Shown here: in pieces, positions 30,737-55,317 of the stretch
How the letters are laid out: each line of letters starts with the position of its first letter
How positions within the stretch are numbered: the first letter of the stretch is position 1
Assembly (NCBI GenBank): GCA_007859835.1
Contig: SJPJ01000001.1
Coordinates: 2,259,771-2,323,770, forward strand
Length of the DNA: 64,000 nucleotides
Direction: 5' to 3'
Source of the DNA: Novipirellula herctigrandis
GTDB taxonomy: Bacteria; Planctomycetota; Planctomycetia; Pirellulales; Pirellulaceae
Notes under the pieces: model-generated
What the model was told of the DNA's origin: nothing
Database searches by the model: none
Seen by the model: the letters and a program-made list of their open reading frames with translations, nothing else
Position numbers and translations under genes: made by a program

Positions 30737-32836
30737 TTACCGCTCCTTCCCCACAAATTCTCCACGCGAGACTTTGCCGTCGCCGTTGGTGTCAAAACGA
30801 TTGAAGCGTTCCTCCAAGTCAGGTTTCCCAGCCAGTCCGCTCTGATACTCTTCCAGCGACAGGTGCTCGTCCTTATTCGTGTCCCAGCGATCAAAAGGAA
30901 TATTGCGATCACCCTTTCCTTTTGATCTGGTCCTCGTGGCCTTGATCGGCGCGGCAGCCGATTCTTGCTGAGTACTCAAAGCAGTGCCGGCGAACGATTT
31001 GCCGTTTCCCGCAACTTCCGGGTAACTCCGTAGAAACTGATTCTCGTCGATCAGGTTCAGGTAATAGTGGGTTGTCCCGGCGGGTAATTCAGCAGTGACG
31101 GTGTTGTTATCCGCTAGAGTCGCTGGCGTGCGAAACCATTCTTCGTACTGCTCGCCACCGTTGAGTGTGTAAATCAAATCCGCGCTGGTGACCCGGGCAC
31201 CCTTTTCTTTGTAGGTAGCGCTAACTTTTTGCCCTTTCCTTTGATGCGACTCAACCGTGCAAACCTTGTCCTGGTTGGGCAAGGGTATCGCACAAGCTGG
31301 GTTGTAATACGGATAGCTTGCGTGCATCTCGGTCAGCGCGGCCGTCAGTTTGGTGTTCATGCTTTGGGCCAACTCCGGCATCGACTCGGACAGATTCCTC
31401 GCTTCCTCGATATCAACACGTCGTGCGTTGTTGTTGGATGAATCATAAAGCTGAAACAGCTCCAAAGGTACTGTTTCGTCGTTGCCGACGTGGTCGAAAT
31501 TGCGGACCAACTTGTAATCGCCGACGCGAATCGTACTTTCCATCGCCGATCCGTGCGGGAAGTGCCAAACCATCGTGTCGCGAGTCGTCCCGTCAGCGTG
31601 CTTGACCAGCCCGGCATCCGTGGGGTTGTTGTGCAGGAGCGGCAGCAGGTCACACCCATCGAGATTCTTGTTTGATGGCTTGGGTGTTCCCGTCATCGCC
31701 AGGATCGTGGGATAGAAATCAAGCCCATTGGCCATCACGTCGGTCTGCACACCCGCGGCAATCCCGGGGCCTGCGATCAGCAACGGAACACGGGTCCCGC
31801 CTTCCATCGCCGAGATTTTCCCGCGAGCCAACGGTTCGTTATCGGTGTAGCGCTCCTTCGGGCTGCCTTCCATGCCGCCGTTGTCGGAGGTGAAGATCAC
31901 ATAAGTGTTTTCGCTCAGGCTGTGTCCGGGCCAGCGTGGATCTTCGGTCTCGTCGAGATAATCGAAAATGATCCCAACGTAGTAATCCAGTTCCTGGACC
32001 ATCGCACAATAAAACGGATTCAACTGGCCCGGCGTGTCCTTCGTCGGGGTGTTGGCCGGATCCGTCCCCAAACGCTTGACGTATTTGTCTAAGTGGGCCT
32101 CTGACCGCGTGTGAATCGGAGCGTGAACGAGCCAGGTCGCATAGTACAGAAAGAACGGTTTGTCTTTGTTCTCCTTCAAAAACGTCAGGGCATCTTCGTT
32201 CGTTTGGTGATACGGGTAGCCGTTTTCATCGAGCCTGTATGGATCATCCGCGGCCGTGGTGGCAAAACCGGTGAGTCGATTGTCCATCCCACTTCGCGAT
32301 CCACGACTGGACCGAGTGAAATCAAAACCCAAATCCTGCGGCTGCGGGAAGGCATTGTGGCTGATCGCAATGTGCCATTTTCCCGAATGTCCTGTCGTGT
32401 ATCCGTTTTGGCGAAGAGCTTTTGCCAAGGTCATTTCATCGGCAGGCATACGACCGCTATACCATGGATTCATCACCCGAGAATGCTTGCTGTTCGGCTT
32501 CGGTGGTGCACCGCCAACGACGTGTGTTTTCTGTGCCCGCGCTGGATGGTTGCCGCTCAGGATGGCACAGCGTGAAGGAGCACAGGTTGGGGCCGGTGAG
32601 TAACCTTGCCAAAACATCACACCCTGCTTGGCAAAGGCGTCGATGTTGGGCGTTTCCATCGGCGAAGGATCGTCAATGTCATAGCACTTGACGTCTTGCC
32701 AACCGAGGTCGTCGGTCAGCAACAACAAAACGTTCGGTTTCTCAGGGCGACCGTCGTCGTCGGCATACAACGTAGCGTCGTTGACCGAAAACAATGCTGC
32801 GGGCAGAAACAAAAATTGCAGTAGTCGAATTTTCAA
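30737..32836 (-). CDS. Secreted S1 sulfatase with C-terminal EF-hands
   Basis: The 699-residue protein has a signal peptide, the N-terminal metal site LLLTDDLGWQD (about 38-48), and the formylglycine motif CAPSR at 85-89 in TCAPSRCAILSG. FTSDNGGMEGSP supplies further metal ligands. A beta domain follows (about 540-640), then two EF-hand loops near the end (DTNKDEHLSLEE, about 651-662, and DTNGDGKVSRGE, about 682-693). It should remove sulfate esters from a polysaccharide outside the cytoplasm, with calcium as cofactor. It is the last gene of the 14-gene block and a paralogue of the gene at 53437-55317, which lacks the EF-hands. Confidence 0.93.
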   Translation of the reverse strand: MKIRLLQFLFLPAALFSVNDATLYADDDGRPEKPNVLLLLTDDLGWQDVKCYDIDDPSPMETPNIDAFAKQGVMFWQGYSPAPTCAPSRCAILSGNHPARAQKTHVVGGAPPKPNSKHSRVMNPWYSGRMPADEMTLAKALRQNGYTTGHSGKWHIAISHNAFPQPQDLGFDFTRSSRGSRSGMDNRLTGFATTAADDPYRLDENGYPYHQTNEDALTFLKENKDKPFFLYYATWLVHAPIHTRSEAHLDKYVKRLGTDPANTPTKDTPGQLNPFYCAMVQELDYYVGIIFDYLDETEDPRWPGHSLSENTYVIFTSDNGGMEGSPKERYTDNEPLARGKISAMEGGTRVPLLIAGPGIAAGVQTDVMANGLDFYPTILAMTGTPKPSNKNLDGCDLLPLLHNNPTDAGLVKHADGTTRDTMVWHFPHGSAMESTIRVGDYKLVRNFDHVGNDETVPLELFQLYDSSNNNARRVDIEEARNLSESMPELAQSMNTKLTAALTEMHASYPYYNPACAIPLPNQDKVCTVESHQRKGQKVSATYKEKGARVTSADLIYTLNGGEQYEEWFRTPATLADNNTVTAELPAGTTHYYLNLIDENQFLRSYPEVAGNGKSFAGTALSTQQESAAAPIKATRTRSKGKGDRNIPFDRWDTNKDEHLSLEEYQSGLAGKPDLEERFNRFDTNGDGKVSRGEFVGKER

Positions 32837-33061
32837 GGGAATGTATCCTGAGGTTGGGATTGGATGGCTTTTTTCGGTGAATTGATTTAACAGGAGGCAA
32901 CGGAGAGAACGGAGAAGGCTTTTCAGTATCAGTCATTTTGCATGCAAGGCACTGTGATGCACGGTCCCAATACCCATACCGAATAATTTCTCAAATTCGT
33001 CCATTTCCTCTGTTCTCTTCTGCTCATTTCCTGTGGGTCCATTGCCAAATTTTGCACTTCG

Positions 33062-34135
33062 TTATCGCATCTCATCAACGGTACATACGCCGTCGCCATT
33101 TTTATCATAGTGCTGATCGAACTGATCCTCAAAAACAGAAGCATATTCTTCCGGTGTCAGCTGGTTATCCTGATTCTTGTCCGCGACTTCAAACGAGGAA
33201 TGGGCATGCTCGTTAAGTGAGAGAACCCCGTCTTTGTTGTGGTCTTTCCGTCCGAAGCCGGCGGCGCGAGGGGCAACGTATTCCGCTTTGGTCACCTGCC
33301 CGTCGCCATTGGTATCCATCGACGCATGTTTTAATGCGGCGGAAGGCTTACCATTTTCAAGCGGATAATCGTTGAACATCATTGGCTTGAACTCGCCGTT
33401 GGCTTGCTCTCGGGCCATCCAGATTCCCGTATTTGAAATACTGGGAAATCCGTCTAGCGGATCTTTCGTCAGCATTCGGAGAACGGCTTTACCGCTGCTT
33501 CCATGCCCTGACAGCAGAATGGTTGTATCGGTCCCGCCAAAACGATCCTGAATCATGTCGAGCACTCGTTGAATCACGACACGGGCCGCGGCGTTCACCA
33601 GTTCATCATCTGCTGGCGTGTTCCCGTAGCGAGGCAGTTTGATATTATTCATGCCGTCCGACCGCAGGGAAAAATAGGGTGCCTCATTGGCGGGTAATTC
33701 CACAGCATCTCCCTCTCCGAAAATCGTGTCGGTGGGTGCTGGTTGTTCCGTGGATAGAATCAAGTCGCTGGCACGTTGCTCGAGAAGCTCCGGCCAGATC
33801 TCCCCTTTAACGTCCATCTCTTTCATGTAGGGCAAAATTGTATTCCGGCATCGCCACAACGGACTTACCGCAATAAAATCAAAGTCGTATTTCTTGAGCT
33901 TCCCCGACACGGCGGCCTGCTGAGCCAGTCCTTTCGGAGTAAACATATCGGGGTTCCCAACGTAAGCGGGCCATTGATCTTTGGGAACCTTCCGATGCTC
34001 CCAGTCCGCTTTGACGTTGTGCCCACCTTCTGCATGGCGGATGTAATAGATCTTCAACTCCGCGAAGGCAACGCTCGGTCCCAGCAAAACACTGGCTGCC
34101 AGAATAAGTAGCGATACGATTAATGGTTTTTTCAT
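33062..34135 (-). CDS. Secreted histidine phosphatase-like protein with EF-hands
   Basis: The 357-residue protein has a signal peptide (KKPLIVSLLILAASVLL) and a histidine phosphatase domain: YYIRHAEGG (R-H with A-E in place of the usual R-H-G), VSPLWRCRNT and LSGHGSSGKAVLR with the second catalytic His. Four EF-hand-like loops follow, such as DTNGDGQVTKAE, DHNKDGVLSLNE and DKNGDGVCTVDE. Phosphate or sulfate esters are possible substrates. I chose the ATG at 34135, preceded by AGAGG. It is the only non-carbohydrate enzyme in the sulfatase/glycosidase block, and its presence there is unexplained. Confidence 0.82.
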   Translation of the reverse strand: MKKPLIVSLLILAASVLLGPSVAFAELKIYYIRHAEGGHNVKADWEHRKVPKDQWPAYVGNPDMFTPKGLAQQAAVSGKLKKYDFDFIAVSPLWRCRNTILPYMKEMDVKGEIWPELLEQRASDLILSTEQPAPTDTIFGEGDAVELPANEAPYFSLRSDGMNNIKLPRYGNTPADDELVNAAARVVIQRVLDMIQDRFGGTDTTILLSGHGSSGKAVLRMLTKDPLDGFPSISNTGIWMAREQANGEFKPMMFNDYPLENGKPSAALKHASMDTNGDGQVTKAEYVAPRAAGFGRKDHNKDGVLSLNEHAHSSFEVADKNQDNQLTPEEYASVFEDQFDQHYDKNGDGVCTVDEMR

Positions 34136-34169
34136 AATGGCCTCTGTTGCGATCAAATCTGTGGTCGAA

Positions 34170-34240: not shown

Positions 34241-34256
34241 CTTGGATCGAAACAAT

Positions 34257-36965
34257 TCATAAACCTGGCTCAGCAACAGAAATCGAGTCGATTCGCGCCT
34301 TGCCTGCAATTTGCTCCATTCGAATATCCGTTCCTGCAGAAACCTGTTTTTCGAGAACCAGAACATCCGCATCGGTAACCGTTCGCACGGTTCCCATTCC
34401 TCCGTTACTTCCGTCAAGAATTGTAAGTCTCATGGTTTCGCCGCGCCCAAGCCCAGCGAAATCAATCTCATCAAGCATGACGTCGGTGTCGAAATCAAAC
34501 ACCCAAGCTTCATTGGGATCGAAATTCTGATATTCGGAGCCACTCACGGAGCCGGTGTTGATACTCAGAGAGTCCACGCCTTTATAGATGGTGGTCGTAT
34601 TGCCCTCGTGAGTCCGATCACTGCCGATGATCGCACGAGTGGTGAGAGTGATGCCGCTGACGGTCATTCTCGCCCCAACGACGCCCGCTTTTGCATCCAG
34701 TGCGGAACCATCGGTAAATTCAAAGACGACCTTTTTACCTCGAGCATTCAAGGGGTTTGCTAAAGACGATCCGACCTCGCGCAGATCGATCGGTTTGATG
34801 CCGAGCTTCTCGGCGGGCGAACCCTTCTTGAATCGATAGAGTCCTTCCTTCATCGCTTCTTCATCAAACATGGGATCTGCGTAGAGTAGCTTCACCGGAT
34901 CTTTACCGGGCGTCACCGGTTGCCCAGCGAACAAGTCACTCCCGAGTTCTGCTTTGGGCACGTACGGATCACTCTTATTCTGCGTAAAATAGATCGAGTT
35001 CTCCATTTTAGGGAGATTCTCATAGAACGGCCGGTTCGTCGCACGCTCGTCTGTCAGGTAAAGACCGTTACCGGACTTAGAAGACGCCGGCGGCATAAAG
35101 ATGTTTCTCTGCGGTAGCGCTTTCTTGGTGCCACCCAACCATCCAGGCAGGGTTCGCCCGCGCAGGAAAGTTTCAGTGAAAATGAAGTTGTTGATCACAT
35201 CGGCAGGTCCCTTGAGCCCCAGGCCTCGCTCTGATTCAGTGATCACATTTTCCCGGATGATGGTGAAACTCGGATTGTCATCCAGACGAATGGCCCCTGC
35301 TGTATCATAATTTTCGTGAAGATAGTTGCGCTCCACCAAGTTGTCCTCGCCCATGGCTGAGAAATAGATCGCGTTCCCGTCATGCAGCTTGAGAAGCGTG
35401 CGCGAGATATCATTCATGATGATCTTGTTTTCACGGGCATGTAGAAGCGGCAGGAAGTGCTCAAGACGGTTCTGCCACTCGGCGGCGAGTCCCTTTCTGA
35501 TAGCGGACTCACACTCCTTAAATCGAATCGAGGATACCCATGCGCGCCTGAATGGGATTCGGTTCACGAGGTAAAACTCATGCGGACGGCAACCGCTCAC
35601 CACAATGCCGTTGTAAGGAACTTCTTGAATCGTGTTGTGGGTGATTTCGTTGTGCCCGCTTTGTGTGATGAAAATGGCGGCGGAATGCAACAAGAGTTCA
35701 CCGATGTGGTGAATGTAGTTGTCGTGCACCACGTTGTTCTTGTTCACGTCCTTGGTGCCCGGACCATAGCCGCTGAGCACAATGCCTCCTCCGCCGAGAT
35801 GGTGCAGGTGATTGCTGGCAATTTTGATTCGCTGACAGTGCAGATCGAGGCGGATGCCCGTGCCGCTGCTTGACTTGATGACACACGATGAAACCGCGCA
35901 GTCTTCGGCAAAGCGGAAGCGGACCACGGCATTGCCCTTGTCATACATTTCCCAGTCGTGTTGCAGGCCCTTATCCTGTGCAAGCAGGTTGTCACGCACA
36001 CCATGGGTGAAGGTGAGACCTTCGAAACGGAGATGCGACGCAAAAGGTCCATCCTCCGCGCCTTCAACTCGGATGAATTCCTGTAGAAACGGCGCGATCA
36101 CATTCATGTCGGCCACATCCTTTTCAGGCCACATGTAAATACGCCCTTCCTGAGTATTTACCACCCATTCTCCCGGCTCATCCAGATATTCGATCGCATT
36201 CTCAACCCAGTAGCGGTTGTTCGGGTTGATCGGCTGATACGTCGGATCCACCGCCAAGTGGGCAATCTTGTTTTCGGAATCAATGCGCTCAAGCGGGATG
36301 ATGTTGGCCAACCACGGACGATCCTTCAGCAGGAGTTCGATATCGGAAGGGTTTTGCCAATCCTTGATGTCATTGTCCCTGTAGAAAACAGTGCGGTCGA
36401 ACGGTGCAACGGGCTTACCTTCATACTCCAACACACTCGTTAACTTTTTACCCTGCTGGTTAAAGTCATTTTCCTTTTTGACGTCTGCATATTTGAAGCT
36501 ACCTGACCTGGAGCGTTTAAGAATCGTCTTCCCATCGTAGAGGGATCGGATCACCCATTGCTCGCCTGCTCCCTTTGGAATCTCAGCCACCCAAAGCTTG
36601 CCGCGCGCCTGCTCGGATACGCCCTTGGGATCCGATGACGTTTTTTTCCATCCCGTTATCGAAACACCTCCTGTAAACACAGGTTCCTCACCGGGGAACG
36701 CTTTGTAAACGACAGCAGCTCCTTCAACGCCCGAATCCTCCACACCAAACACAACGGTTTGCCTTAAAGGGTAGACACCGCCTTTTATCAGGACCTCAAT
36801 CGGTTGACTGGGCTGCCTTTTCTTAAGTTCTCGAACTTGCAATCGAGCATCTTCCAGCGTCGCGATGGGACCATCGGGACTCATAACAAGGGTCGCCTGA
36901 TCAGCCCAGAGCGAACTGAAGGTGAGGCACCAGAACAGAATGACGTATTTGTGTATTTTGGACAT
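34257..36965 (-). CDS. Secreted right-handed beta-helix glycoside hydrolase, GH141-like
   Basis: The 902-residue protein has a signal peptide (MSKIHKYVILFWCLTFSSLW) and the GH141-type start: SPDGPIATLEDARLQVRELK, IKGGVYPLRQTVVFGVEDSG and PVFTGGVSITGWK. A beta-helix of parallel repeats follows (about 310-640; SSGTGIRLDLHCQRIKIASN, GHNEITHNTIQEVPYNG). From about 755 there is a separate C-terminal beta domain. GH141 includes alpha-L-fucosidase and xylanase activities; with GH29, GH95 and sulfatases beside it, fucosidase is the likelier. Family assignment is by eye. Confidence 0.75.
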   Translation of the reverse strand: MSKIHKYVILFWCLTFSSLWADQATLVMSPDGPIATLEDARLQVRELKKRQPSQPIEVLIKGGVYPLRQTVVFGVEDSGVEGAAVVYKAFPGEEPVFTGGVSITGWKKTSSDPKGVSEQARGKLWVAEIPKGAGEQWVIRSLYDGKTILKRSRSGSFKYADVKKENDFNQQGKKLTSVLEYEGKPVAPFDRTVFYRDNDIKDWQNPSDIELLLKDRPWLANIIPLERIDSENKIAHLAVDPTYQPINPNNRYWVENAIEYLDEPGEWVVNTQEGRIYMWPEKDVADMNVIAPFLQEFIRVEGAEDGPFASHLRFEGLTFTHGVRDNLLAQDKGLQHDWEMYDKGNAVVRFRFAEDCAVSSCVIKSSSGTGIRLDLHCQRIKIASNHLHHLGGGGIVLSGYGPGTKDVNKNNVVHDNYIHHIGELLLHSAAIFITQSGHNEITHNTIQEVPYNGIVVSGCRPHEFYLVNRIPFRRAWVSSIRFKECESAIRKGLAAEWQNRLEHFLPLLHARENKIIMNDISRTLLKLHDGNAIYFSAMGEDNLVERNYLHENYDTAGAIRLDDNPSFTIIRENVITESERGLGLKGPADVINNFIFTETFLRGRTLPGWLGGTKKALPQRNIFMPPASSKSGNGLYLTDERATNRPFYENLPKMENSIYFTQNKSDPYVPKAELGSDLFAGQPVTPGKDPVKLLYADPMFDEEAMKEGLYRFKKGSPAEKLGIKPIDLREVGSSLANPLNARGKKVVFEFTDGSALDAKAGVVGARMTVSGITLTTRAIIGSDRTHEGNTTTIYKGVDSLSINTGSVSGSEYQNFDPNEAWVFDFDTDVMLDEIDFAGLGRGETMRLTILDGSNGGMGTVRTVTDADVLVLEKQVSAGTDIRMEQIAGKARIDSISVAEPGL

Positions 36966-37148: not shown

Positions 37149-38219
37149 TTATTTGGTTCGTTCCTTCATCTTGAAGACGTGCGAACAGCTACCGTGCCCA
37201 GGCGTCGTATTGACTCCGGTGGCCAAATACAGATACGCGGGATTCCCGTCGATCGCAAGCACCTGCGCGCGTTCAAGGTGGCCATCGATTTTGCCTCGAT
37301 ACGCTTTACCTTCACTCAACGCTTCCTTCCCGACGTAATGTGCCAGATCTTCATAGGCACGCGTCGTGTTCTCGGCATCAAAAAAGAATCCTTCCTTGGA
37401 TTTCCAAAGCAGTCCTCCACCGTTTGACCCTTTGGACCCCACAAAATCACGGCTTAGCATATAGACATGCTGATTCATGGTGAACGCATACGCGTCTTCC
37501 AGCTGCATGGAGTCCGGGGTGACACGTTTCGGATGATGCTTGTAGGGGCCTTCCAGCTTGTCCGACACGGCAACGCCATAGTTGTACCTGCCGCGTTTGG
37601 CTTTGGGGTAAGGCTTGACGACAGACTTGTCGTACAACAGATATTTTCCATTGTGTTTCACCAGCGAAGGATTGGAAACACCCAACTGGGCAGCCACATT
37701 CCAATCCCCAGGTTCCGTGGACTTTCGCAGGATCGTGCCGTCGGCCTCGGCTCCGGCGGCCGGTTTCCAGTCGTCGTTCAAATCGTCAGCGACGTACATG
37801 ACGATCCGCTGTGTTTTTAGCAAACTGTTTTCGTTGACGATGAAGCAAAGCACATATTTCCCATCGATCTTCTTGATCGTTGGGTTGTGTGGCGAGTTGA
37901 AGGTTCCGTCGGAATCGGGCACCGCCACACGGACAAATTCAAAAGGGCCCTCCGGCTTGTCGCCCACGTAGTGTGCAATTTCGCACTCCTTGTACCAACC
38001 GCTGAAGTTCTTCTGCGTCATCATGGACCAACGTGCGACATACAGATGCACTTTTCCGTCAGGGCCGATCACGGGCGACGAACCCCAAACATGCATGCCT
38101 TCGGTTTGCACCGCCTTGCCAACATATTCAAACTCAAGATCGCATGGTTGCGCCATGCAAAGCGTCGGTACAGCCAATAGACAAAGTACAAAGAGTCTCA
38201 TTTGCATCATCTTTTCCAT
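37149..38219 (-). CDS. Secreted five-bladed beta-propeller glycosidase (GH43/GH117-like)
   Basis: The 356-residue protein has a signal peptide (MRLFVLCLLAVPTLCMA) and propeller repeats: HVWGSSPVIGPDGKVHLYVA, FNSPHNPTIKKIDGKYVLCF, LGVSNPSLVKHNGKYLLYDK and QLEDAYAFTMNQHVYMLSRD. Strand-end acids and histidines (SPHNP, LEDAY) are where GH43 and GH117 enzymes place catalysis. It is a clear paralogue of the gene at 41784-42878. These families cleave arabinose, galactose or anhydrogalactose linkages; the substrate here is unproven. The start could also be the Met four or seven codons in. Confidence 0.78.
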   Translation of the reverse strand: MEKMMQMRLFVLCLLAVPTLCMAQPCDLEFEYVGKAVQTEGMHVWGSSPVIGPDGKVHLYVARWSMMTQKNFSGWYKECEIAHYVGDKPEGPFEFVRVAVPDSDGTFNSPHNPTIKKIDGKYVLCFIVNENSLLKTQRIVMYVADDLNDDWKPAAGAEADGTILRKSTEPGDWNVAAQLGVSNPSLVKHNGKYLLYDKSVVKPYPKAKRGRYNYGVAVSDKLEGPYKHHPKRVTPDSMQLEDAYAFTMNQHVYMLSRDFVGSKGSNGGGLLWKSKEGFFFDAENTTRAYEDLAHYVGKEALSEGKAYRGKIDGHLERAQVLAIDGNPAYLYLATGVNTTPGHGSCSHVFKMKERTK

Positions 38220-41783: not shown

Positions 41784-42878
41784 CTATCTGCTGCCTGCCT
41801 CTGAACCGGAGTGAGACGGATTCGGTCTTTTGATTCGGAATAGGCAAGAATGACTGCCATTTCCACCAGTTAGATTGGCTCCGGATGCGACGTAGAGGTG
41901 AGTGGGGTGCCCGTCCTGGACAAGCACCTGCGGACGCTCAAACTTCTTGCCACGCGGTACCTTGGCGTTGGCAAGAAGTTCTTTATCCAGATAGCGATGC
42001 ATTTTATCGTAACCCAAAATTGGATCCGTGAAATGAATCCCGTTATCCGACTCCCAAAGGTAGCCCGTTCCTTTGTTGTTGTGCGTGGTTAACAGGTAAA
42101 CCTTTCCGTTTTCCACAAACGCGTAGCCATCTTCGATCGTCGTCGAGTTGCTCGTCAATGGATCAGCAATAAATGCATAAGGCCCCTCGACCTGATCCGC
42201 AATCGCAACCCCCATGCGACGAACATCCCCCTTCTTCATCGCCTTGTAGTACAGAAAAAATCGGCCGTCCGGATGCTCCAAGAGTGCGGGATTGTTGACT
42301 CCAACCGTCGATTGATGGCTCCAGATGGAAGGGTCTGTCGGAGGGGCCAGGATCAGGCCATCGTCCCCGACCTTTTTCCAGGGGCCTTCGGGGCGATCGG
42401 CAATCATCATTCCGATCCGCTGCGAAGCAACTTGTTCACTTTTCACTCCGCCACCATTGGCGATGTAGGTGAGCACGTACCGGTCCCCTACCTTCTGTAT
42501 GTTGGGATTGTGTGGCGACTGAAAATCCCATGCCCCTTCTTTCCCGCTCCCCCGCACCACCACTTCTTGGAACACAAAAGGGCCTTCTGGACTGTCACTC
42601 ACATAACGGGCAATTTCAGAATGGGTTAACCAAGCCTTAAATTCTTGCTTCAACGGCCAACGCGCAAGGAAAAGGTGCGTTTTTCCAGACGGTCCCACCA
42701 CCGGACTGGACCCCCACACATGATAGCCGGGATCTTCCACCGCAACGCCCACATATTCCAAGCGATCCGCCCATGAGCGATCCTCATGATCTTGCCCGGA
42801 AACCATAGCGGACTCGATGGCGACCAGCAGCCCCGCGATGAGAATCAGATTCATCCGAACAGTAATTTGTTGTTTCAT
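41784..42878 (-). CDS. Secreted five-bladed beta-propeller glycosidase, paralogue of the one at 37149
   Basis: The 364-residue protein has a signal peptide (MNLILIAGLLVAIESAM) and the same repeats as its paralogue: YHVWGSSPVVGPSGKTHLFL, FQSPHNPNIQKVGDRYVLTY, VGVNNPALLEHPDGRFFLYY and TIEDGYAFVENGKVYLLTTH. Conserved acids and histidines fall in the same places. The final region ends KRPNPSHSGSEAGS. Both copies lie on either side of the GH29-sulfatase pair, so they may cut two different linkages of one polymer. Family (GH43/GH117-like) is by eye. Confidence 0.78.
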   Translation of the reverse strand: MKQQITVRMNLILIAGLLVAIESAMVSGQDHEDRSWADRLEYVGVAVEDPGYHVWGSSPVVGPSGKTHLFLARWPLKQEFKAWLTHSEIARYVSDSPEGPFVFQEVVVRGSGKEGAWDFQSPHNPNIQKVGDRYVLTYIANGGGVKSEQVASQRIGMMIADRPEGPWKKVGDDGLILAPPTDPSIWSHQSTVGVNNPALLEHPDGRFFLYYKAMKKGDVRRMGVAIADQVEGPYAFIADPLTSNSTTIEDGYAFVENGKVYLLTTHNNKGTGYLWESDNGIHFTDPILGYDKMHRYLDKELLANAKVPRGKKFERPQVLVQDGHPTHLYVASGANLTGGNGSHSCLFRIKRPNPSHSGSEAGSR

Positions 42879-47043: not shown

Positions 47044-48591
47044 TCACTTTGCCAATTCCGTCACCAGCACCTGGCATCGTGCTCTGTGTTCTTTCAACAC
47101 GGATTCGTATTCCGGGACGGTGGCCAGATTGTTCTGTTCTTTGGGATCTTTCTTGAGATCAAACAGCTCCTCGTAAATCGGCTGCTCGCCGCCCGTGGAT
47201 GCCTTGGGCAAATACTTTTTGCGATCGTGTTCTCGCGAAAAGTAACGAATGTACTTCCAATTCTTCCCGCGGACCGCTTCCATCCGCGGATAGCCCTGAT
47301 CGGTAAACAGGTTTTCGCAGAACACATCCTCGCGCCACGAAACCTCGCGGCCCTGAATCAGCGGCAGCAGGCTTTCGCCTTGATAGGTCGCTGGGACCGG
47401 CAATCCACACAACTCTAGAATCGTCGCTGGCACATCCTGCCCAACGACCAATTTGTCGATCGTTTTCCCTCGCTCATTCTTTTCAAAGTAAGGCGAGTAA
47501 AAGATCAGTGGAACGCGAATCGACTCTTCGTACAAGAACGTCTTGCCGCCCAGTCCATGTTCTCCCAGCAACAGCCCATGGTCCGAAATGAAAACCAGAA
47601 TCGTGTTGCTGGCCAAATCCATTTCTGCGAGCGTTTGCCGCAAGTTGCCGACGAACCGATCAATCCCGGCGACCGCGCGGGCCATTTTGGTTTTCTTGTC
47701 GAGCAACCTCGGCGGATTCGTTGTCCGATAGTAGCCCATCAATTCGTCTTGCCGAAAAACATCGTCGGGCAACGGCACTTCGATATTCGGATACCCTTTG
47801 GGGAACACGAAGTCGTCTGCTTTGTCGCTGTAGAGCGACCGATACATCTCCGGGTCGGTCGACTTGGATCCCATCCCACCGATGCTGGCGGCGTGGGGTA
47901 AATTGAAATTGATGGACAGACAAAACGGCTTGTCCGAATGGCGTTGCCGCAAAAAGTCTTTCACCGATGAATCGGCGTTCTCAAAGAAATAGTCTTTGTC
48001 TTTGCCAGGGCGAATAAACGCGTCGGTCGCCTCAAACAGACCTTCAATTTGTGAACTGTGCTTCAAGTTTTGAAACTGTTTCCACTTCATCAGATCAAAA
48101 CCCAGGTGCCCCGGTTTCATGTAGCAGAAATCCACGTTCTCTTTCATGTAACGATTTTGCTGCTTGATCTCACCAATATTGGTGTGGTGCTTGCCGATGT
48201 ACCCGGTAAAGTAGCCCGCTCGTTTCAACTGCATCAGCCAGCTGTTGTCAAACAGTTCGGTGGGGATGAAATTCTTCGAGACATACGTGAAGCCAACCCG
48301 ATTCTTTCGTTCCCACTGTCCGGTGAAGAAGTTAGCACGACTGGGACCGCAAATGGGGCTGGTGATCAACGCTTGATTGAAGAACACACCTTCGGCGGCC
48401 AACTGGTCAATGTTGGGCGTCTTGGTCACCGGATGCCCGGTCATGCTGAGCGAATCGAATCGCTGGTCATCCGTTTTGATGAAGATGACATTCGGTTTGG
48501 CAGAGGCATTGGGCTGATCCACTGGTTCTGCCTGGGCGATAGAGACAACGGGCAGCAGGCTGGCCAGCACCAAAACGATTTGAATTTTCAT
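47044..48591 (-). CDS. Secreted S1 sulfatase
   Basis: The 515-residue protein has a signal peptide (MKIQIVLVLASLLPVVSIAQ), metal ligands in FIKTDDQRFDS (about 37-47), formylglycine motif CGPSR at 81-85 and VFISDHGLLLGEHGLGGKTF. The latter, with DHG in place of DNG, belongs to the iduronate-2-sulfatase-like type. C-terminal LFDLKKDPKEQNNLA is complete. Extracytoplasmic, presumably acting on a sulfated polymer. The gap to the next gene downstream in the block is 129 bp and holds the palindromic repeat. Confidence 0.94.
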   Translation of the reverse strand: MKIQIVLVLASLLPVVSIAQAEPVDQPNASAKPNVIFIKTDDQRFDSLSMTGHPVTKTPNIDQLAAEGVFFNQALITSPICGPSRANFFTGQWERKNRVGFTYVSKNFIPTELFDNSWLMQLKRAGYFTGYIGKHHTNIGEIKQQNRYMKENVDFCYMKPGHLGFDLMKWKQFQNLKHSSQIEGLFEATDAFIRPGKDKDYFFENADSSVKDFLRQRHSDKPFCLSINFNLPHAASIGGMGSKSTDPEMYRSLYSDKADDFVFPKGYPNIEVPLPDDVFRQDELMGYYRTTNPPRLLDKKTKMARAVAGIDRFVGNLRQTLAEMDLASNTILVFISDHGLLLGEHGLGGKTFLYEESIRVPLIFYSPYFEKNERGKTIDKLVVGQDVPATILELCGLPVPATYQGESLLPLIQGREVSWREDVFCENLFTDQGYPRMEAVRGKNWKYIRYFSREHDRKKYLPKASTGGEQPIYEELFDLKKDPKEQNNLATVPEYESVLKEHRARCQVLVTELAK

Positions 48592-48631: not shown

Positions 48632-48661
48632 CTACCTGGACTTCTTCTACCTGGACTTCAT
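48632..48661. repeat. 15-bp tandem duplication at the end of a sulfatase gene
   Basis: CTACCTGGACTTCTT at 48632-48646 and CTACCTGGACTTCAT at 48647-48661. The second copy contains the stop codon and last codons of the sulfatase; the first lies just past the stop. Confidence 0.88.
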
Positions 48662-50224
48662 CTTCCCTTTACCCTGCTTCGTTTCAATCACAGCCGGCAA
48701 GCCGTCATCTGGCTGATTGGAAAAGCGGAACGGATCATAGTGATCTCGCATCTCCTCCAGCAAAACCTGCTCCATTTCCTTGAGCCTCTGTGCATAGGCC
48801 GGATCGTCAGCCAGATCGGTTTGCTTCGGATTGGGCGTATACCCGGTGAATGCAATCACGTTCGGATCGTGGTGTTCAGGCAGCAATTCGTTGGGGTTCT
48901 CGGCCAGGTTGAAAAGCTGGGTTTCGCTCACGCCATCCTGGGTCGATTCATAGCGGATCAGTTTCCAGTCGCCTTTCTTGACACACCGCATTCCGGGCTT
49001 CGCGCCGCCGCAATAGGCACCGTAGAGCACATCGCGCACCGTATCCTTTTCCCCTTCGAGAATTGGCTTAAAGCTAATCCCTTCGCTGGTCTTCGGCGTT
49101 TCAATCCCGGCGAGATCACAAAGCGTTGCCAGCGCGTCGAGATGATAAATGTTCCCCAACGCCCGCGAGCCCGGTTTGATGCCTGGGCCTTTCACGATGT
49201 AGGGGACGCGGAAGGTGTGCTCGTAAAGATTTTGTTTGCCCTGCAGCCCGTGCCGTCCGATCGCCATCCCGTGGTCGGACGTGTAGAAGATATAGGTATT
49301 TTCCAGTTCGCCCAACTGCTTCAGCTTTTCCAAAACAGCACCGATTTGGATGTCGATATTTTCGCTGCAGGCATACTCTCGGCCGATCTCATTGCGAATA
49401 GTGCGTTCATCACGGTTGCTCCAAACCCCGCTGACGTTTACCTCGTCGCGAACCTTCATGTCCGTATTGTTGAACGGATGTCCGGGGAGATAGTTATGCG
49501 GAAGCTTTGGCTGATTTGGATTGGCCGGAGGGAGGCTGTTCTTGTTCCGATGATTCACCGCACCATATTTGGCCAGCAACTCGGGCTTCCCGTCCCGAAC
49601 ATCATGGGGGTGCGAAAACCCGTAATAGATTAGAAATGGATCCTGATCGTTGGACGTCTCACGCCCGTCGAGATAGTCAAGCACCTGCTTCGCGTGCCAA
49701 CCGCTGCCGGTTTCATCGGTGCCGCCTCGTTTGGTCGAATCGTGTACGACGTTGAATTGCTTGTTCGCGTCAGCATAGCTGTTCCCCTGCTTGCAAGTCC
49801 GCATCGTGTCATAGCCTGCGGAATTAAATACCGCCGCCATGGTATGACTCGCTAGATTGGGTGGCACATGACCTGGATCTTTCTCAAGCGGATTGCGGCC
49901 GAATGTTGGTTTATCCGGAACATGCCATAGCGTGCGGCCGGACATGATCATATGGCGTGACGGAGTACATACGCCACCGCACCAGGCTCCCATTTGATGG
50001 GCTCCATCGATCACCATGCCCTCGGCCGCCAGACGGTCAATCACCGGAGTGTCCAACGACGAGTCCGGATCGTAGGTTTTCAGATCAAAAGGTGCTTGGT
50101 CATCGGCGACGATATACAGAATGTTGGGCCGCTTCGCAGCGACCTCTGCTCCAAAGAAACCGGTAGCCAACAAAGAAGCGAACCCCACCACTAACCAGGT
50201 TCGATATCGATTTGTTTTCATCAC
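48647..50224 (-). CDS. Secreted S1 sulfatase
   Basis: The 525-residue protein has a signal peptide, IVADDQAPFDL (about 38-48), the formylglycine motif CTPSR at 86-90 (WCGGVCTPSRHMIMSG) and FYTSDHGMAIGRHG-type metal ligands. The layout is that of choline-sulfatase-like enzymes; the substrate is not clear. The final residues (GKGKMKSR) are extended by a basic tail that coincides with a tandem duplication. It lies two bases past the next sulfatase stop, so it is co-transcribed and probably coupled with it. Confidence 0.94.
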   Translation of the reverse strand: MMKTNRYRTWLVVGFASLLATGFFGAEVAAKRPNILYIVADDQAPFDLKTYDPDSSLDTPVIDRLAAEGMVIDGAHQMGAWCGGVCTPSRHMIMSGRTLWHVPDKPTFGRNPLEKDPGHVPPNLASHTMAAVFNSAGYDTMRTCKQGNSYADANKQFNVVHDSTKRGGTDETGSGWHAKQVLDYLDGRETSNDQDPFLIYYGFSHPHDVRDGKPELLAKYGAVNHRNKNSLPPANPNQPKLPHNYLPGHPFNNTDMKVRDEVNVSGVWSNRDERTIRNEIGREYACSENIDIQIGAVLEKLKQLGELENTYIFYTSDHGMAIGRHGLQGKQNLYEHTFRVPYIVKGPGIKPGSRALGNIYHLDALATLCDLAGIETPKTSEGISFKPILEGEKDTVRDVLYGAYCGGAKPGMRCVKKGDWKLIRYESTQDGVSETQLFNLAENPNELLPEHHDPNVIAFTGYTPNPKQTDLADDPAYAQRLKEMEQVLLEEMRDHYDPFRFSNQPDDGLPAVIETKQGKGKMKSR

Positions 50225-50226: not shown

Positions 50227-51708
50227 TTACCTCTCACTTTTCCACAGTTTAATTTCATCCATATCGTTCTTTGCCGCCGCACCGTCCGTGCTGCGACCAC
50301 CCACCACATCCGCTTCCAACAGTTTCAGCAGACGTTTTGCCACTTCCGGGTGGCTTTCATAAAGGTTCGTTGTTTCGCTGGGGTCGTTTTCCAGATCGTA
50401 CAGCTGAGCCTTGGGCGCATCTGCCGGGGCACTCTTTTCGTTTGGAGCTGACCATCCACCGGAAGCTTTGGCCAGGCACAGCTTCCACTTGCCCTGGCGA
50501 TAGGCAAAGTGGCCACTAATCGAATGATGAATCACTCCGGAGCGGGTAGACACAATCGGTTTCCCCGACAACGCGGGCAGAAAGCTGACACTGTCTTCCG
50601 CACTTCCGGCCGGTAGCGGCGTCCCCGTCAGTTCGGCAAGTGTCGCTATCAAGTCGATGAGACAAATCAACTGGTCACTGTCGGTGCCCGCCGCAACGTT
50701 TCCCGGCCAGCGGACGATAAATGGAACGCGGTGCCCGCCGTCCCAGATATCGGCTTTGGAGCCGCGCATGTGGGCGCTGGCATAATGTCCGGCGGCCTCA
50801 AGTTCTTTCAATTTCGCCGCTTTGGAACAACCATTGTCGCTGCTGAAAATCACCAGGGTATTGTCGGTCAACCCGTTGTCTTCCAATGCCTGGACCATCG
50901 CTCCAAAAGCATCATCGGTCTGCATGACAAAATCCGCATACGGATTGATCCCGCTTTTCCCCTGCCACTCCTTCGTTGGCAAAATCGGGGTATGCGGCGA
51001 ACCGAGTGGCACATAGAGAAAGAAGGGCTGGTCCGGAGTTTTCGCCCGCTCTTCGATATACTGCACAGCCTTTCGCTTCAGACGCGGCAACATGTTGATC
51101 TCGTCTTCATGAAGGATGACGGTATCGTTTTCGATGACCCCCTTCATGTCGCCCGCGTGGTGAAAGCCGTGGTAGTAATCAAAACCACGGCTGACCGGTC
51201 CGTCGGGGATGGTGCTGCCGACCGGAGCCAGCGTTTTCTTTCCTTTCCGCTTCACGGTTTTCCCGGTCGCCGGATCCTGATAGAGGAAATCCAAATGCCA
51301 CTTTCCAATGATCGCGGTGTGATAGCCCTGGTCCTTCAGAAAGCTGGCCACGGTCGGACGATCGGCAGCAATCAGATTGGGAGCAAAACCCTGAACCACG
51401 CCACGCTGCAAACGGGTGCGCCAGCTGTAACGCCCAGTCATAAGACCGTAGCGAGTCGGCGTGCAGACCGATGACCCGGAGTGTGCATCGGTGAAGATCA
51501 TCCCATCGGCGGCGAGCTTATCGATATTCGGCGTCGAGATTTTACCCCGCTCCGGGTTCAGGCACTGCACGTCGCCGTAGCCCAGATCATCACAAAGTAC
51601 AAAAACAACATTCGGACGTTCCGCGTTAGCTGAGGCAGCCAGCGACAATACAGCCCAGGCCCCAACGACCAGCTGTCGAATCATGGATGCTTGGTTCATC
51701 AGTTCCAT
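50227..51708 (-). CDS. Secreted S1 sulfatase
   Basis: The 493-residue protein has a signal peptide (MIRQLVVGAWAVLSLAAS), FVLCDDLGYGDVQCL (about 36-50), the formylglycine motif CTPTR at 82-86 (SVCTPTRYGLMTG), and IFSSDNGCSKAAK. RGFDYYHGFHHAGD and HDSISGH-like strands give the substrate pocket. This is the arylsulfatase-A-like type. The Met at residue 9 is an alternative start that opens directly on the signal peptide. Two bases separate its stop from the start of the next gene in the block. Confidence 0.93.
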   Translation of the reverse strand: MELMNQASMIRQLVVGAWAVLSLAASANAERPNVVFVLCDDLGYGDVQCLNPERGKISTPNIDKLAADGMIFTDAHSGSSVCTPTRYGLMTGRYSWRTRLQRGVVQGFAPNLIAADRPTVASFLKDQGYHTAIIGKWHLDFLYQDPATGKTVKRKGKKTLAPVGSTIPDGPVSRGFDYYHGFHHAGDMKGVIENDTVILHEDEINMLPRLKRKAVQYIEERAKTPDQPFFLYVPLGSPHTPILPTKEWQGKSGINPYADFVMQTDDAFGAMVQALEDNGLTDNTLVIFSSDNGCSKAAKLKELEAAGHYASAHMRGSKADIWDGGHRVPFIVRWPGNVAAGTDSDQLICLIDLIATLAELTGTPLPAGSAEDSVSFLPALSGKPIVSTRSGVIHHSISGHFAYRQGKWKLCLAKASGGWSAPNEKSAPADAPKAQLYDLENDPSETTNLYESHPEVAKRLLKLLEADVVGGRSTDGAAAKNDMDEIKLWKSER

Positions 51709-51816: not shown

Positions 51817-51882
51817 AAATCCAAATTCAGTCAGTTATACCGTCAATGAATTCGCTCGTCGCACGGTCATACGCCATGGCCG

Positions 51883-53421
51883 TTAATCAGTTGCGCGGGC
51901 GTGGAAGTCCCGTGTCTTTTCTCTCAGTTTCTCAAGTACCGCTGCGTATTCGGGATTGGAGATGAGGTTGTCCTGCTCATGCGGGTCTTCTTTCAGATCA
52001 TAGAGTTCTTCAATCACCGGATCATGTTCAAAGTAGGCGAAGTACTTGTAGCGTTCCGTGCGCACGCCGCGGCTGCGATACGATCGCTTATTCGCAATGA
52101 GCTCTATGTTTTGAGCATCAGGGGTGACTCCCTTTTTTCGCCCTTTACCAAGAAGTTCCTGAATAAAGAAGTTTTCCATCAGCACGGTGTCACGCCATTT
52201 GGACAAGTCTTGCGTGCCTGCAAGCAATTGACCCAAGTCGCGTCCCTTCATACTTGGCGGAACTTCCAATCCGGCCAGAGAAAGAATTGTCGGAGCGATG
52301 TCGACCGAGGACACCATCGCGTCTACTCGGCTGCCGCGCCGCGACTTCGGGGCGCGGGGATCGAAAACAATCAGCGGCTGCTTCATCGCTTCATCGTAAA
52401 GAATCGCCTTGTCAAACAGCCCCTGCGAACCGTGGAAGCGACCATTGTCGCTGGTGTAAATCACGACGGTGTTTTCCAGCACGCCCATTTCCTTCAGCTT
52501 GTCCATCAATCGTTTGACTTGCTGGTCGACCGTGTACCCCTGCACGGCAAAACGACGAGTCCTTCGTTGATACTCTTGCGGTGTCGATGTTCGATCCCGA
52601 TGCAGATAGACACCACGGGCATGATCTTTCAGCACCTGCGGCAGCTTTTCGTTTTCCCCTTCCACATAGTTTTTAGGAACCCACATCGGCTTGTCTTTAA
52701 AAAGTGCCACATGCGGACCATACATATCGCTGTCGCGATCGTTCTTGACGGCATCAAAACTGATCGAAAGACAGAAGGGCTGCCCCTCAGGTTGCGTCTC
52801 CAGAAAGTGAATCATCGAATCTCCCTTGATCAAAGTTCGCTCTTTAGGATCGCGGTCTTTTCGATAGATGTGCTGCAATTTTTTATCGTCCGCAGGAAAA
52901 TGAGGCCCCTTCTTGCTGGTCGTGGAAATCCCCGTGTAAAAATCGAAGTGCTCAGCGACGGTCTGTGGCAGGTCTTCCAGCCGAACGCCAAACTTGCCCA
53001 CGAAACCCGTACGATAACCCGCCGCTCGCAGTTGGGCCGGATAGCTGTCGGCAAACTCCTTTGCGGGCAGCGTGCGGTTATAGGGATAGGTAAATCCGCA
53101 TTGATGATCCGAAAAGTAGCGTCCCGTAAACGTTGTGGTACGACTCGGCATGCAAATCGCCACCGCGTAGTAGGCATTGTCGAAAGCCACGCCACTGGCT
53201 GCGAGCTTGTCGATGTTGGGAGTGAGTACATCGGTCCGGCCATAACAACCAAACGTATCCCAACGCTGGTCGTCACTCATTACAAAGACGATATTGGGGC
53301 GATTGGCTTCACGCTTGGCAAGCTTGTCGTCTGCATTGGCCTGGCCCATCGCAAATGCGGTGTTGGCTGCGACCAACAACCCAAAAGCCAGCCCAGTTTT
53401 CCTCATGCTATTGTTCTTCAT
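51883..53421 (-). CDS. Secreted S1 sulfatase
   Basis: The 512-residue protein has a signal peptide (MRKTGLAFGLLVAANTAFA), FVMSDDQRWDTFGCYG (about 46-61), the formylglycine motif CMPSR at 90-94 (AICMPSRTTTFTG), and VIYTSDNGRFHGSQG. FCLSISFDAVKNDRD is the usual strand after the metal site. C-terminal LYDLKEDPHEQDNL is complete. It lies 15 bp after the first gene of the block and 174 bp before the next, so the three form the start of the transcript. Confidence 0.94.
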   Translation of the reverse strand: MKNNSMRKTGLAFGLLVAANTAFAMGQANADDKLAKREANRPNIVFVMSDDQRWDTFGCYGRTDVLTPNIDKLAASGVAFDNAYYAVAICMPSRTTTFTGRYFSDHQCGFTYPYNRTLPAKEFADSYPAQLRAAGYRTGFVGKFGVRLEDLPQTVAEHFDFYTGISTTSKKGPHFPADDKKLQHIYRKDRDPKERTLIKGDSMIHFLETQPEGQPFCLSISFDAVKNDRDSDMYGPHVALFKDKPMWVPKNYVEGENEKLPQVLKDHARGVYLHRDRTSTPQEYQRRTRRFAVQGYTVDQQVKRLMDKLKEMGVLENTVVIYTSDNGRFHGSQGLFDKAILYDEAMKQPLIVFDPRAPKSRRGSRVDAMVSSVDIAPTILSLAGLEVPPSMKGRDLGQLLAGTQDLSKWRDTVLMENFFIQELLGKGRKKGVTPDAQNIELIANKRSYRSRGVRTERYKYFAYFEHDPVIEELYDLKEDPHEQDNLISNPEYAAVLEKLREKTRDFHARATD

Positions 53422-53436
53422 GTTTTCACATTCTAC

Positions 53437-55317
53437 CTATTTGGATTCCGCAACCGCCTGCGCCGTCTCTGACGGATGGTTGGTGCGAGTCGATTTTTCC
53501 ACATCAGGATAGCTGACCAGGAAATTATTCTCGTCGATCAGGTTAATCACATAGTGGGTTGTTCCAGCGGCCAACGTGGCTGAGCCCTTGTTTTCGGGCA
53601 ACAATTTTGCTGGCGTACGAAACCACTCCTCCTGAAATTCTCCACCGTTGGATGTGTAGATCAACTGAGCCCGAATAACCTTCGCGCCATGTTCCTGATA
53701 GGTAAACTCAACAACATCGCCATCTTGTTTCAAAGAAAGGACTGTTGGAACCTTTTCCTTATTCGCTAGCGAATGTTTGCAGTGCGGGTTGAAATAGGGA
53801 TAGCTGGCTCTCATCTCCGTCAACCTCTCGGTAAGCTCCGCGTTCATGGCCCGCGTTTTTTCCGGCATCGAAGCGGCGAGGTTTTTAGACTCTTCAATGT
53901 CTCCCCGAATCTGTTTGCCGTCCTTCGTTTCGTACAACCGGTAAAGCTCCAGCTCTGGAGCATCGTCTTTGTGGTCGTAGTTCCGAATGAGCTTGTAATC
54001 CCTGATGCGAATCGTGCTCTCCAACGCGATGCTGTTTGGGAAATGCCACAACATGGTATCACGGACTGAACCGTCGTCTTCTTTCACCAACTCCGGATCG
54101 GTGGGGTCGTTCTTCAGCAGCTCGGAAATGTCACAGCCGTCGAACTGTTTCCCTTCGGGTTTCTGCGTGCGAGTCCACGAAAGAATGGTGGGATAGAAAT
54201 CGAGTCCGTTGATCATCACATCCGACTGCACACCGGCATCAATACCGGGGCCAACAATGATCAGCGGCACACGCGTGCCACCCTCCATGGCAGAAATCTT
54301 GCCACGATCAAGCGGGTAATTATCCGTGATATTGTCGCCGGGCATCCTTTCCATGCCGCCATTGTCGGAGGTAAAAATGATGTACGTGTTTTCGCTTAGC
54401 GTATGCCCCGGCCAACGCGGGTCTTGGGTGGTTTCCAGGGCCTGGAACAGTTTTCCAACGTAGTAGTCGAGTTCTTCCACCATCGCACAGTAAAAGGGAT
54501 TGGTCTGGCCCTCGCCTTTCCACTGCTGCGGATTTTCCGGCAGTTCCACTCCGAGCTTGTCGCAGTATTTTTTCAGCAGCCGCTCGCTGCGCGTATGAAT
54601 CGGTGCGTGGACAAGCTTGGTGGCATAGTACAGAAAAAACGGTTTGTCTTTGTGTTCATCCAAAAACGCGAGTGCGTCGATGCTGTTCTGGTGGGTTGCA
54701 AATCCATTGTCATCCAGGCGATATGGATCGTTAGGCTTGTCAGTTGCGAACCCGGTCAAGCGATGCGGCCGCATACGGGTGGTTGTTCCCGCGTTGCGTT
54801 GCGACCAATCGAAGCCTTGATCTTCCGGTTGCGGAAAAGCATTGTGCTTGATTGACATGTGCCACTTGCCACAGTGGCCGGTCGTGTAACCGTTGGTTTT
54901 CAGCGCCTCCGCGATTGTTACCGTTTCCGCTGACATGTGCCCGCGGTACCACGGCGGCATCATGCGGTGCTGTGTTTTATGATAGGGCGCGGGCGGCTTG
55001 CCGCCGACAACATGAGTAAGCTGAGCACGAGCCGGATGATCACCGCTCATGATCGCACTGCGGGTCGGGGCGCAGGTCGGGGCCGGCGAATAGGCCTGCC
55101 AGAACATGACGCCCTTTTCGGCCAACGCATCAATATTCGGCGTTTCCATCGGCGATGGTTCGTCAATGTCGTAACACTTCACATCCTGCCAACCCAGGTC
55201 ATCGGTCAATAGCAACACCACGTTAGGTTGCGGACGCGTCTCCTCAGCAAAGAGGCACACCGATCCCAATATCACAAGAATGGAAACAGCGAATGGTCGT
55301 TTTCTGAATCGGCGCAT
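53437..55317 (-). CDS. Secreted S1 sulfatase, first gene of the block
   Basis: The 626-residue protein has a signal peptide (FAVSILVILGSVCLFA), LLLTDDLGWQDVKCYD (about 35-50), the formylglycine motif CAPTR at 82-86 (TCAPTRSAIMSG) and FTSDNGGMERMPG. A C-terminal beta domain (about 500-600, KLLPENKGSATLAAGTTHYV) follows. It is the closest relative in the window of the sulfatase at 30737-32836, which has the same plan plus EF-hands. The two stand at opposite ends of the block. Its promoter should lie at 55318-55600. Confidence 0.94.
   Translation of the reverse strand: MRRFRKRPFAVSILVILGSVCLFAEETRPQPNVVLLLTDDLGWQDVKCYDIDEPSPMETPNIDALAEKGVMFWQAYSPAPTCAPTRSAIMSGDHPARAQLTHVVGGKPPAPYHKTQHRMMPPWYRGHMSAETVTIAEALKTNGYTTGHCGKWHMSIKHNAFPQPEDQGFDWSQRNAGTTTRMRPHRLTGFATDKPNDPYRLDDNGFATHQNSIDALAFLDEHKDKPFFLYYATKLVHAPIHTRSERLLKKYCDKLGVELPENPQQWKGEGQTNPFYCAMVEELDYYVGKLFQALETTQDPRWPGHTLSENTYIIFTSDNGGMERMPGDNITDNYPLDRGKISAMEGGTRVPLIIVGPGIDAGVQSDVMINGLDFYPTILSWTRTQKPEGKQFDGCDISELLKNDPTDPELVKEDDGSVRDTMLWHFPNSIALESTIRIRDYKLIRNYDHKDDAPELELYRLYETKDGKQIRGDIEESKNLAASMPEKTRAMNAELTERLTEMRASYPYFNPHCKHSLANKEKVPTVLSLKQDGDVVEFTYQEHGAKVIRAQLIYTSNGGEFQEEWFRTPAKLLPENKGSATLAAGTTHYVINLIDENNFLVSYPDVEKSTRTNHPSETAQAVAESK

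Follow-up and report, generated by a model that had tools for sequence, protein, structure and literature searches.

We analysed a 64,000-nucleotide window of the genome of the planctomycete Novipirellula herctigrandis (GenBank assembly GCA_007859835.1, contig SJPJ01000001.1, positions 2,259,771 to 2,323,770 of the forward strand), in which a block of sulfatase and glycoside hydrolase (GH) genes occupies positions 30737-55317. A sequence-only reading of this window had described fourteen genes on one strand over 24.6 kb and assigned them to a sulfated, fucose-containing polysaccharide. Open reading frame (ORF) calling and Pfam searches recovered this block as a minus-strand run of 14 ORFs, which total 23,184 bases in length within 24,581 bases and are separated by gaps ranging between -22 and 258 bases. 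A hydrophobic leader, judged by eye, was found at all 14 N-termini. The coupled sulfatase/GH29 pair proposed earlier is real: the GH29 ORF (38355-40232) shares 22 bases with the upstream sulfatase ORF (40211-41722), an overlap that shrinks to 4 if GH29 starts at its second Met. Thirteen of the genes had already been named, while the fourteenth (33062-34156) had not been described. In what follows, G labels denote genomes (G000 is the source genome) and L labels individual loci; G340, G362 and G406 also belong to the Pirellulaceae. The genes of the block are as follows.

30737-32836 (-): S1 sulfatase with a C-terminal EF hand; PF00884 3.9e-43, EF-hand 4e-9, CAPSR; paralogue of 53437-55317
33062-34156 (-): histidine phosphatase domain with EF hands; PF00300 1.7e-9, EF-hand 4.1e-13
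34257-36965 (-): GH141, parallel beta-helix, putative fucosidase or endo-fucanase; PF21231 9.1e-9; 9rx2 7.2e-123; BT1002 (5mqp) 4.2e-19
37149-38219 (-): GH117-fold propeller; PF04616 6e-6, below cut-off; fold inferred from the paralogue 41784-42878
38355-40232 (-): GH29 alpha-L-fucosidase; PF01120 6.2e-71; 9rzy 1.8e-64, 9eu1 3.9e-63
40211-41722 (-): S1 sulfatase; PF00884 2e-50; CAPTR; 6bia 2.8e-55
41784-42878 (-): GH117-fold five-bladed propeller; PF04616 match; phmmer 3p2n 3.8e-9; Foldseek
42961-45426 (-): divergent GH95; PF22124 2.9e-20, PF21307 2.1e-8; 8zbv 3.4e-13
45685-46914 (-): predicted GH107 endo-fucanase with an N-terminal SHD1 domain; 8bpd 2.5e-15; Foldseek; SHD1 2e-11
47044-48591 (-): S1 sulfatase; PF00884 8.2e-39; CGPSR; 87% homologue near a GH95 homologue in G241
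48647-50224 (-): S1 sulfatase; PF00884 1.2e-35; CTPSR; 77% homologue in G001
50227-51708 (-): S1 sulfatase; PF00884 1.2e-53; CTPTR; 7oze 4e-72
51883-53421 (-): S1 sulfatase; PF00884 4.4e-43; CMPSR
53437-55317 (-): S1 sulfatase, nearest an S1_16 structure; PF00884 1.5e-44; CAPTR; 9fo1 1.2e-60

At E 0.01, Pfam gave none of the 14 proteins a match to SusC/D, transporters or regulators, in line with the earlier description; the absence of SusC/D says little, because another uptake route has been proposed for planctomycetes (PMC12078418). Promoter and terminator scans were tried as operon markers and gave no signal (6 promoter-like hits versus 11.7 in shuffles; 21 terminator-like hits versus 21.1). 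An antisense ORF of 523 aa at 51901-53472 was discarded as a feature, and an ARAGORN tRNA-Ala call at 48788-48881 (+), inside a sulfatase gene on the opposite strand, is most likely false.

The GH107 protein and its relatives

The product of 45685-46914 had been listed as an "SHD1-barrel enzyme". The SHD1 domain (residues 31-88, at the N-terminus) and the barrel both stand, but the enzyme had been left unclassified and can now be placed in GH107 by sequence, fold and residues. No Pfam model matched its catalytic domain. In the solved-structure search the GH107 fucanases 8bpd (2.5e-15), 6m8n (3.7e-10) and 6dns (2.5e-9) came first. A structure model built with 32 sequences (pLDDT 87.2, pTM 0.81) showed a (beta/alpha)8 catalytic domain and returned the five GH107 entries at Foldseek ranks 1-5 (E 5.3e-20 to 8.9e-18), and beneath them the GH29-like FucWf4 and then GH29 fucosidases. 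A GH29 variant was considered and rejected: alpha-L-fucosidases appeared in the solved-structure search only at about 0.08 versus 2.5e-15 for GH107, GH107 came first by fold, and the protein gave no Pfam GH29 match, versus PF01120 over cut-off in 8/9 other relatives scanned. The ninth, L040, is GH107-like by motifs.

Solved-structure alignments set Asp256 against Asp226 and His301 against His294 of MfFcnA, of which H294Q is a deposited mutant, and the two residues correspond to the published GH107 nucleophile/acid-base pair (PMC10619423). Compared with the tables of the same paper, the -1-subsite set was also matched (Tyr196, Asn282, Trp343 and the nearby Pro338), and the window motifs LRYGTKIAGWWFDHA and DFTAGHPTP were nearest to those of Fda1 and Fda2, the Fda2 counterparts being LRYGTLIDGWWFDHS and DFTGGHPTP. 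By sequence, modelled fold, and catalytic and subsite residues, the protein is thus a predicted GH107 endo-fucanase, and GH107 points to sulfated fucan more specifically than any family in the earlier gene list. Because these motifs are closest to Fda1 and Fda2, which are listed as alpha-(1,3) (PMC10619423), alpha-1,3 specificity is our guess, held with slight preference; the same paper cautions against predicting linkage from phylogeny. The protein could be an easily assayed alpha-1,3 fucanase. Since Pfam gave it just an SHD1 label, endo-fucanases of the Planctomycetota can escape Pfam-based annotation.

The family was then followed across other genomes. Alignment A3 contained 32 rows, namely the window protein and 31 of 79 loci, with L085 excluded as a duplicate of L084 and the remaining loci dropped to keep the alignment short. 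The Asp256 position was Asp in 32/32 rows, and the His301 position was His in 17 (the window protein and 16 of the 31 relatives) and Glu in the other 15. In the 32-sequence tree, a 100/100 branch divided the 17 His301 sequences from the 15 Glu sequences; the tree program flags L119, of the Glu group, as a long branch. L090-L103 and L119 make up a family that is sister to the GH107 proteins and is found in several phyla; it has Glu where GH107 has its catalytic His, and the loop after this position is shorter.

A GH107 search of 396 genomes of the order gave a match at 1e-10 or better in 41. Eight matches reached 1e-80 or better, in 7/396 genomes including the source, and the remainder lay at 3.1e-26 or weaker, a division made by score alone. 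A further GH107-type gene was found in G002 (L002). In the 9.5 Mb source genome there was a single GH107 match among the 5 of 14 candidates scored, and six other matches to the protein cover its SHD1 part alone. GH107-type relatives occur in Planctomycetota, Verrucomicrobiota, Lentisphaerota and a Pseudocolwellia; Aporhodopirellula aestuarii ICT_H3.1 carries one whose catalytic domain is 84% identical to that of the window protein. The SHD1-GH107 fusion was seen in the window, L075, L076 and L077 (in L077 also by Pfam), and an N-terminal stretch of L081 may be similar to SHD1. In the literature collection searched, no publication mentioned SHD1 together with fucoidan, and one mentioned SHD1 and planctomycetes, once each; the fusion is the unusual part of the system and worth following.

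L084 and L085 carry the same GH107/sulfatase/GH29 run in metagenome-assembled genomes (MAGs) labelled Opitutia and Gammaproteobacteria, and this shared run under different labels suggests cross-binning. In an Akkermansiaceae MAG, a sulfatase 78% identical to 30737-32836 (L087:2467-3426) adjoins a GH107, which suggests transfer between phyla.

The accompanying sulfatases, glycosidases and propellers

All seven proposed S1 sulfatases were borne out: PF00884 matched 7/14 block proteins (E 1.2e-35 to 1.2e-53), and the C-x-P-S/T-R formylglycine motif is present in 7/7. The sulfatases 30737-32836 and 53437-55317 are 62% identical. Comparison with solved structures covered 3/7, with the nearest structure not amounting to a subfamily assignment. 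For 50227-51708 the unlabelled 7oze came first (4e-72), the S1_15A enzyme 9bas fifth (3.5e-64) and an S1_15B enzyme sixth; for 53437-55317 the S1_16 enzyme 9fo1 was nearest (1.2e-60); and for 40211-41722 6bia was nearest (2.8e-55), with 9fo1 fourth (8.4e-49). Fucoidan-linked subfamilies include S1_15, S1_16, S1_17, S1_22 and S1_25 (PMC12786026). In NCBIfam naming of the sulfatases, all matches were below cut-off.

The GH29, GH95 and GH141 assignments hold in Pfam and solved-structure searches, and profiles did not place these proteins outside fucosidase families. In the GH29 protein, the Asp of WMDGEW and the Glu of LWESC, which we take to be the catalytic residues, align with solved alpha-L-fucosidases. 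The GH141 insertion domain PF21231 was over cut-off (9.1e-9) in 34257-36965. Endo-1,4-fucanases have been reported in GH141 besides the fucosidase BT1002 (PMC12786026), and by analogy the GH141 of the block could be endo-acting. For the structures 9rx2, 9rzy, 9rzx and 9s0x, the literature search found no paper.

The GH95 label (42961-45426) is upheld by both Pfam domains, PF22124 scoring 73 bits versus a cut-off of 27 and PF21307 scoring 35 versus 27.6, but in sequence the protein is divergent. Its nearest solved enzyme is 8zbv (3.4e-13); the Glu of SPE and one Asn are conserved, the second Asn is replaced by Asp, and Met stands in place of the Asp of the GDxxTGW stretch. We take this Asp to be the catalytic D766 of AfcA and the catalytic set to be Glu, an Asn pair and Asp. 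The Asp is missing also in seven GH95 homologues of 64-75% identity and is present in L182 (24%).

The two propellers, 37149-38219 and 41784-42878, are 39% identical, and both matched PF04616, the former below cut-off. The sequence of 41784-42878 best matches GH117 (phmmer, 3p2n, 3.8e-9), and with its model, of medium confidence (pLDDT 67.2), Foldseek ranks 1-18 were GH117/neoagarobiose hydrolase entries; 3p2n and 3r4y are, we assume, GH117 structures. In the alignment, the His-Asp-Pro of GH117 is Asn-Asn-Pro in 41784-42878 and its His-Glu pair, which is H302/E303 from the titles of 4ak6 and 4ak7, is Glu-Asp; 37149-38219 reads Ser-Asn-Pro and Glu-Asp at these places. That the catalytic Glu is kept was considered and rejected, as the alignment sets the propeller Glu opposite the GH117 His and the propeller Asp opposite the GH117 Glu. 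An Asp is expected in blade I of GH117 and GH43 enzymes; both propellers have Ser-Ser-Pro there, placed by eye without alignment to a known enzyme. The pair had been described as GH43/117-like; because the GH117 active-site residues are replaced in both, we call them GH117-fold rather than GH117 proteins.

Genome context and related clusters

The source genome is rich in such genes. At least 150 sulfatases were counted in its 9.5 Mb (150 of 325 candidates scored, 142 of them on the main contig), the GH29 profile hit 47 places, 46 over cut-off, the GH141 query matched 7 stretches, its own included, and 12 matches to the formylglycine-generating enzyme (FGE) family were found. In a chance test with 147 main-contig sulfatases, the 142 plus the window's own five unscored ones, seven sulfatases in 24.6 kb were reached by 1/1000 random placements, a rough comparison that leans towards the window because just the window's unscored sulfatases were added. 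The same contig carries another seven-sulfatase run at 7.900 Mb, which means that this density occurs more than once.

Bacterial microcompartment (BMC) shell genes occur at two places in this genome. At one locus (L200, 3.144-3.158 Mb), 8/10 ORFs scanned gave a match, the families being lactate/malate dehydrogenase, class II aldolase, aldehyde dehydrogenase, EutN, acetate kinase, PTAC, DeoR and BMC. We take this gene set to be the make-up of the planctomycetal fucose/rhamnose microcompartment. Microcompartments of this type handle fucose or rhamnose (PMC8857213, PMC12078418).

Parts of the block recur in other genomes. In G391:C10, homologues of six of the 14 block genes lie within ~11 kb, one as a fragment and one as a broken remnant: a propeller (44%), a fragment like 30737 (37%), 47044 (70%), 50227 (71%), 40211 (62%), a propeller (77%) and a GH107 remnant in two pieces of 50 and 60% that covers residues 229-404 only. 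Homologues of GH95, sulfatase 40211 and sulfatase 30737 are adjacent in G002 (60-75%), and G241 carries homologues of GH95, 47044 and, in two copies, 50227 within ~13 kb (59-87%). Homologues at 55% or more of GH95 and 30737 were found in G340, and of 48647 and 50227 in G001:C12. In G406 a GH107 of 79% identity belongs to a run rich in sulfatases, two of which are homologues of 53437 (74% and 58%), and there is also a gene similar to 33062-34156 in the EF-hand part only. GH107 lies within ~20 kb of GH29 homologues in G001:C2, G391:C5, G364:C5 and G362:C472, and GH141 homologues are likewise near GH107 in G001:C2 and G391:C5 (25-40% identity in each case). The G391 cluster also has, between block homologues, a BD-FAE-type esterase with weak EF-hand matches (L227:14647-15795), a possible fucoidan deacetylase.

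These data bear on whether the run is a patchwork in which sulfatase and GH genes were acquired independently and share no substrate. With its 150 or more sulfatases and its 46 GH29 places above cut-off, the genome could assemble such a run, an equally dense one exists on the contig, and homologues at 55% identity or more are dispersed over several loci in relatives. We nevertheless consider a patchwork improbable: the gaps are small and two ORFs overlap in a coupled pair, block genes recur as clustered subsets in other genera, and the sole GH107 match found in the genome sits in the block.

Several other genes lie around the block. A hypothetical glycosyl hydrolase of the GHL15 type (26330-27502, -; PF14885 1.4e-33), on the same strand ~3 kb downstream, could be an outlying member. 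Three DUF1254/DUF1214 proteins in a row (58270-62877, +) lie just upstream, and a TetR-type regulator is found outside the block at 57416-58198. Farther away are a BD-FAE-type esterase similar to that of the G391 cluster (15762-16871, +; ~14 kb from the block), an alkyl-sulfatase-type metallo-beta-lactamase protein (23542-24900, +) and group II intron reverse transcriptase/maturase domains in two overlapping ORFs (2314-4270, -). Left of the window, sulfatase-like stretches (L032:20-2362) and a GH29 (G000:C1:2237334-2238422) form another nearby sulfatase/fucosidase group.

Substrate, proposed mechanism and known systems

Judged from its gene content, the block probably encodes a periplasmic or secreted enzyme set that degrades a sulfated alpha-L-fucan, most likely fucoidan, and we hold this view with good confidence. 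The earlier proposal of a fucose-containing sulfated polysaccharide is supported by the GH29, GH95 and GH141 assignments and is stronger now because the SHD1 protein belongs to GH107, the family that points most specifically to sulfated fucan. Further support comes from the clustered recurrence of block homologues in other genomes and, at the level of the source genome, from the 46 GH29 places over cut-off, the 12 FGE-family matches and the microcompartment locus.

Several results weigh against this interpretation. The presumed catalytic Asp of GH95 is Met, the GH117 active-site residues are replaced in both propellers, and several of the nearest solved sulfatases in the comparisons for 40211 and 53437 are carrageenan enzymes. 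The complete 14-gene order was found in no relative examined. Moreover, in L075 and L077, two of the three closest GH107 relatives and both on short contigs, the sole glycosidase recognised was a GH116; no sulfatase or fucosidase was present among the GH107 neighbours scanned (1/1 other ORF of 200 aa or more in L075; 5/13 other ORFs of 240 aa or more in L077), and a tblastn search with the block proteins gave no further match on either.

The nearest carrageenan enzymes, the resemblance of a propeller to GH117 anhydro-galactosidases, and GH29 solved-structure matches of which some are named exo-alpha-L-galactosidase could instead point to a sulfated galactan (agar, porphyran or carrageenan), with the fucosidase-family enzymes acting on L-galactose. 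Such a target seems very unlikely, given a GH107 with intact catalytic residues, the replacement of the aligned GH117 active-site residues, and no agarase, porphyranase or carrageenase domain detected by Pfam among the 14 proteins. A sulfated fucose polymer other than fucoidan, such as diatom fucose-containing sulfated polysaccharide (FCSP), echinoderm sulfated fucan or fucosylated glycosaminoglycan, is a possible though less probable target of the same chemistry. The same enzyme families would serve for it, and in Verrucomicrobiota, GH29/sulfatase loci and microcompartments have been tied to fucose-containing sulfated polysaccharides in diatom blooms (PMC8857213). Set against this, assays of the GH107 enzyme Mef1 used fucoidans from brown algae (PMC10619423), and Pfam found no chondroitinase or hexosaminidase domain in the 14 proteins.

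For fucoidan, the most likely substrate, we propose the following course. The polymer would be captured and carried into the periplasm by an uptake route whose genes lie elsewhere. GH107, and possibly GH141, would cut the backbone internally, GH107 presumably as a retaining enzyme in which Asp256 is the nucleophile and His301 the acid/base. The seven sulfatases, each of which would need formylglycine made by an FGE coded elsewhere, would strip sulfate esters; GH29 and the divergent GH95 would, by family, take fucose off chain ends; and the two GH117-fold propellers may remove or bind a side group. The released L-fucose could then be broken down via the fucose/rhamnose-type microcompartment. 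More speculatively, and with little confidence, planctomycetes may possess a distinct SHD1-fused GH107 branch in which SHD1 tethers the enzyme to a polysaccharide-uptake surface of the cell, with the propellers and their altered active site as a new fucan-acting or fucan-binding family. If that were true, loci of this kind would play in planctomycetes the part that the SusC/D-based polysaccharide utilization locus plays elsewhere. Fucoidan is a slow-degrading, carbon-storing seaweed polymer whose breakdown by planctomycetes is little worked out, and the block offers a compact, testable set of endo-acting, exo-acting and sulfatase enzymes.

The system itself is not new in kind, because fucoidan clusters of planctomycetes and GH107 in the phylum have already been published. 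GH107 and other fucosidase families are reported across Planctomycetota (PMC11131199), and PMC12078418 cites fucoidan degradation by R. baltica and hints of periplasmic breakdown in Stieleria. The gene clusters for fucoidan reported from marine Planctomycetota (Perez-Cruz 2024, as cited in PMC12078418) share phylum and substrate class with the block, and that study may describe this cluster type or even a close relative. Wenyingzhuangia fucanilytica, which has a fucoidan-degrading cluster, is reported to possess fucoidan-active enzymes of GH29, GH95, GH141 and GH107 and S1 sulfatases (PMC12786026), but is a member of the Bacteroidota. Lentimonas sp. CC4 is likewise reported to have many glycoside hydrolases and sulfatases, with microcompartments for fucose polymers (cited in PMC11131199 and PMC8857213), but is a verrucomicrobiote. 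The planctomycetal fucose/rhamnose microcompartment has its presumed counterpart in L200, with shell proteins, class II aldolase, aldehyde dehydrogenase, PTAC and acetate kinase, although this locus lies ~0.8 Mb from the block. Finally, Fda1/Fda2, Mef1 (8bpd), MfFcnA (6dlh) and P5AFcnA (6m8n) agree with the window protein in catalytic domain and fold, and also in the Asp/His pair and the residues of the -1 subsite, whereas the window protein has an N-terminal SHD1 domain and no C-terminal extension.

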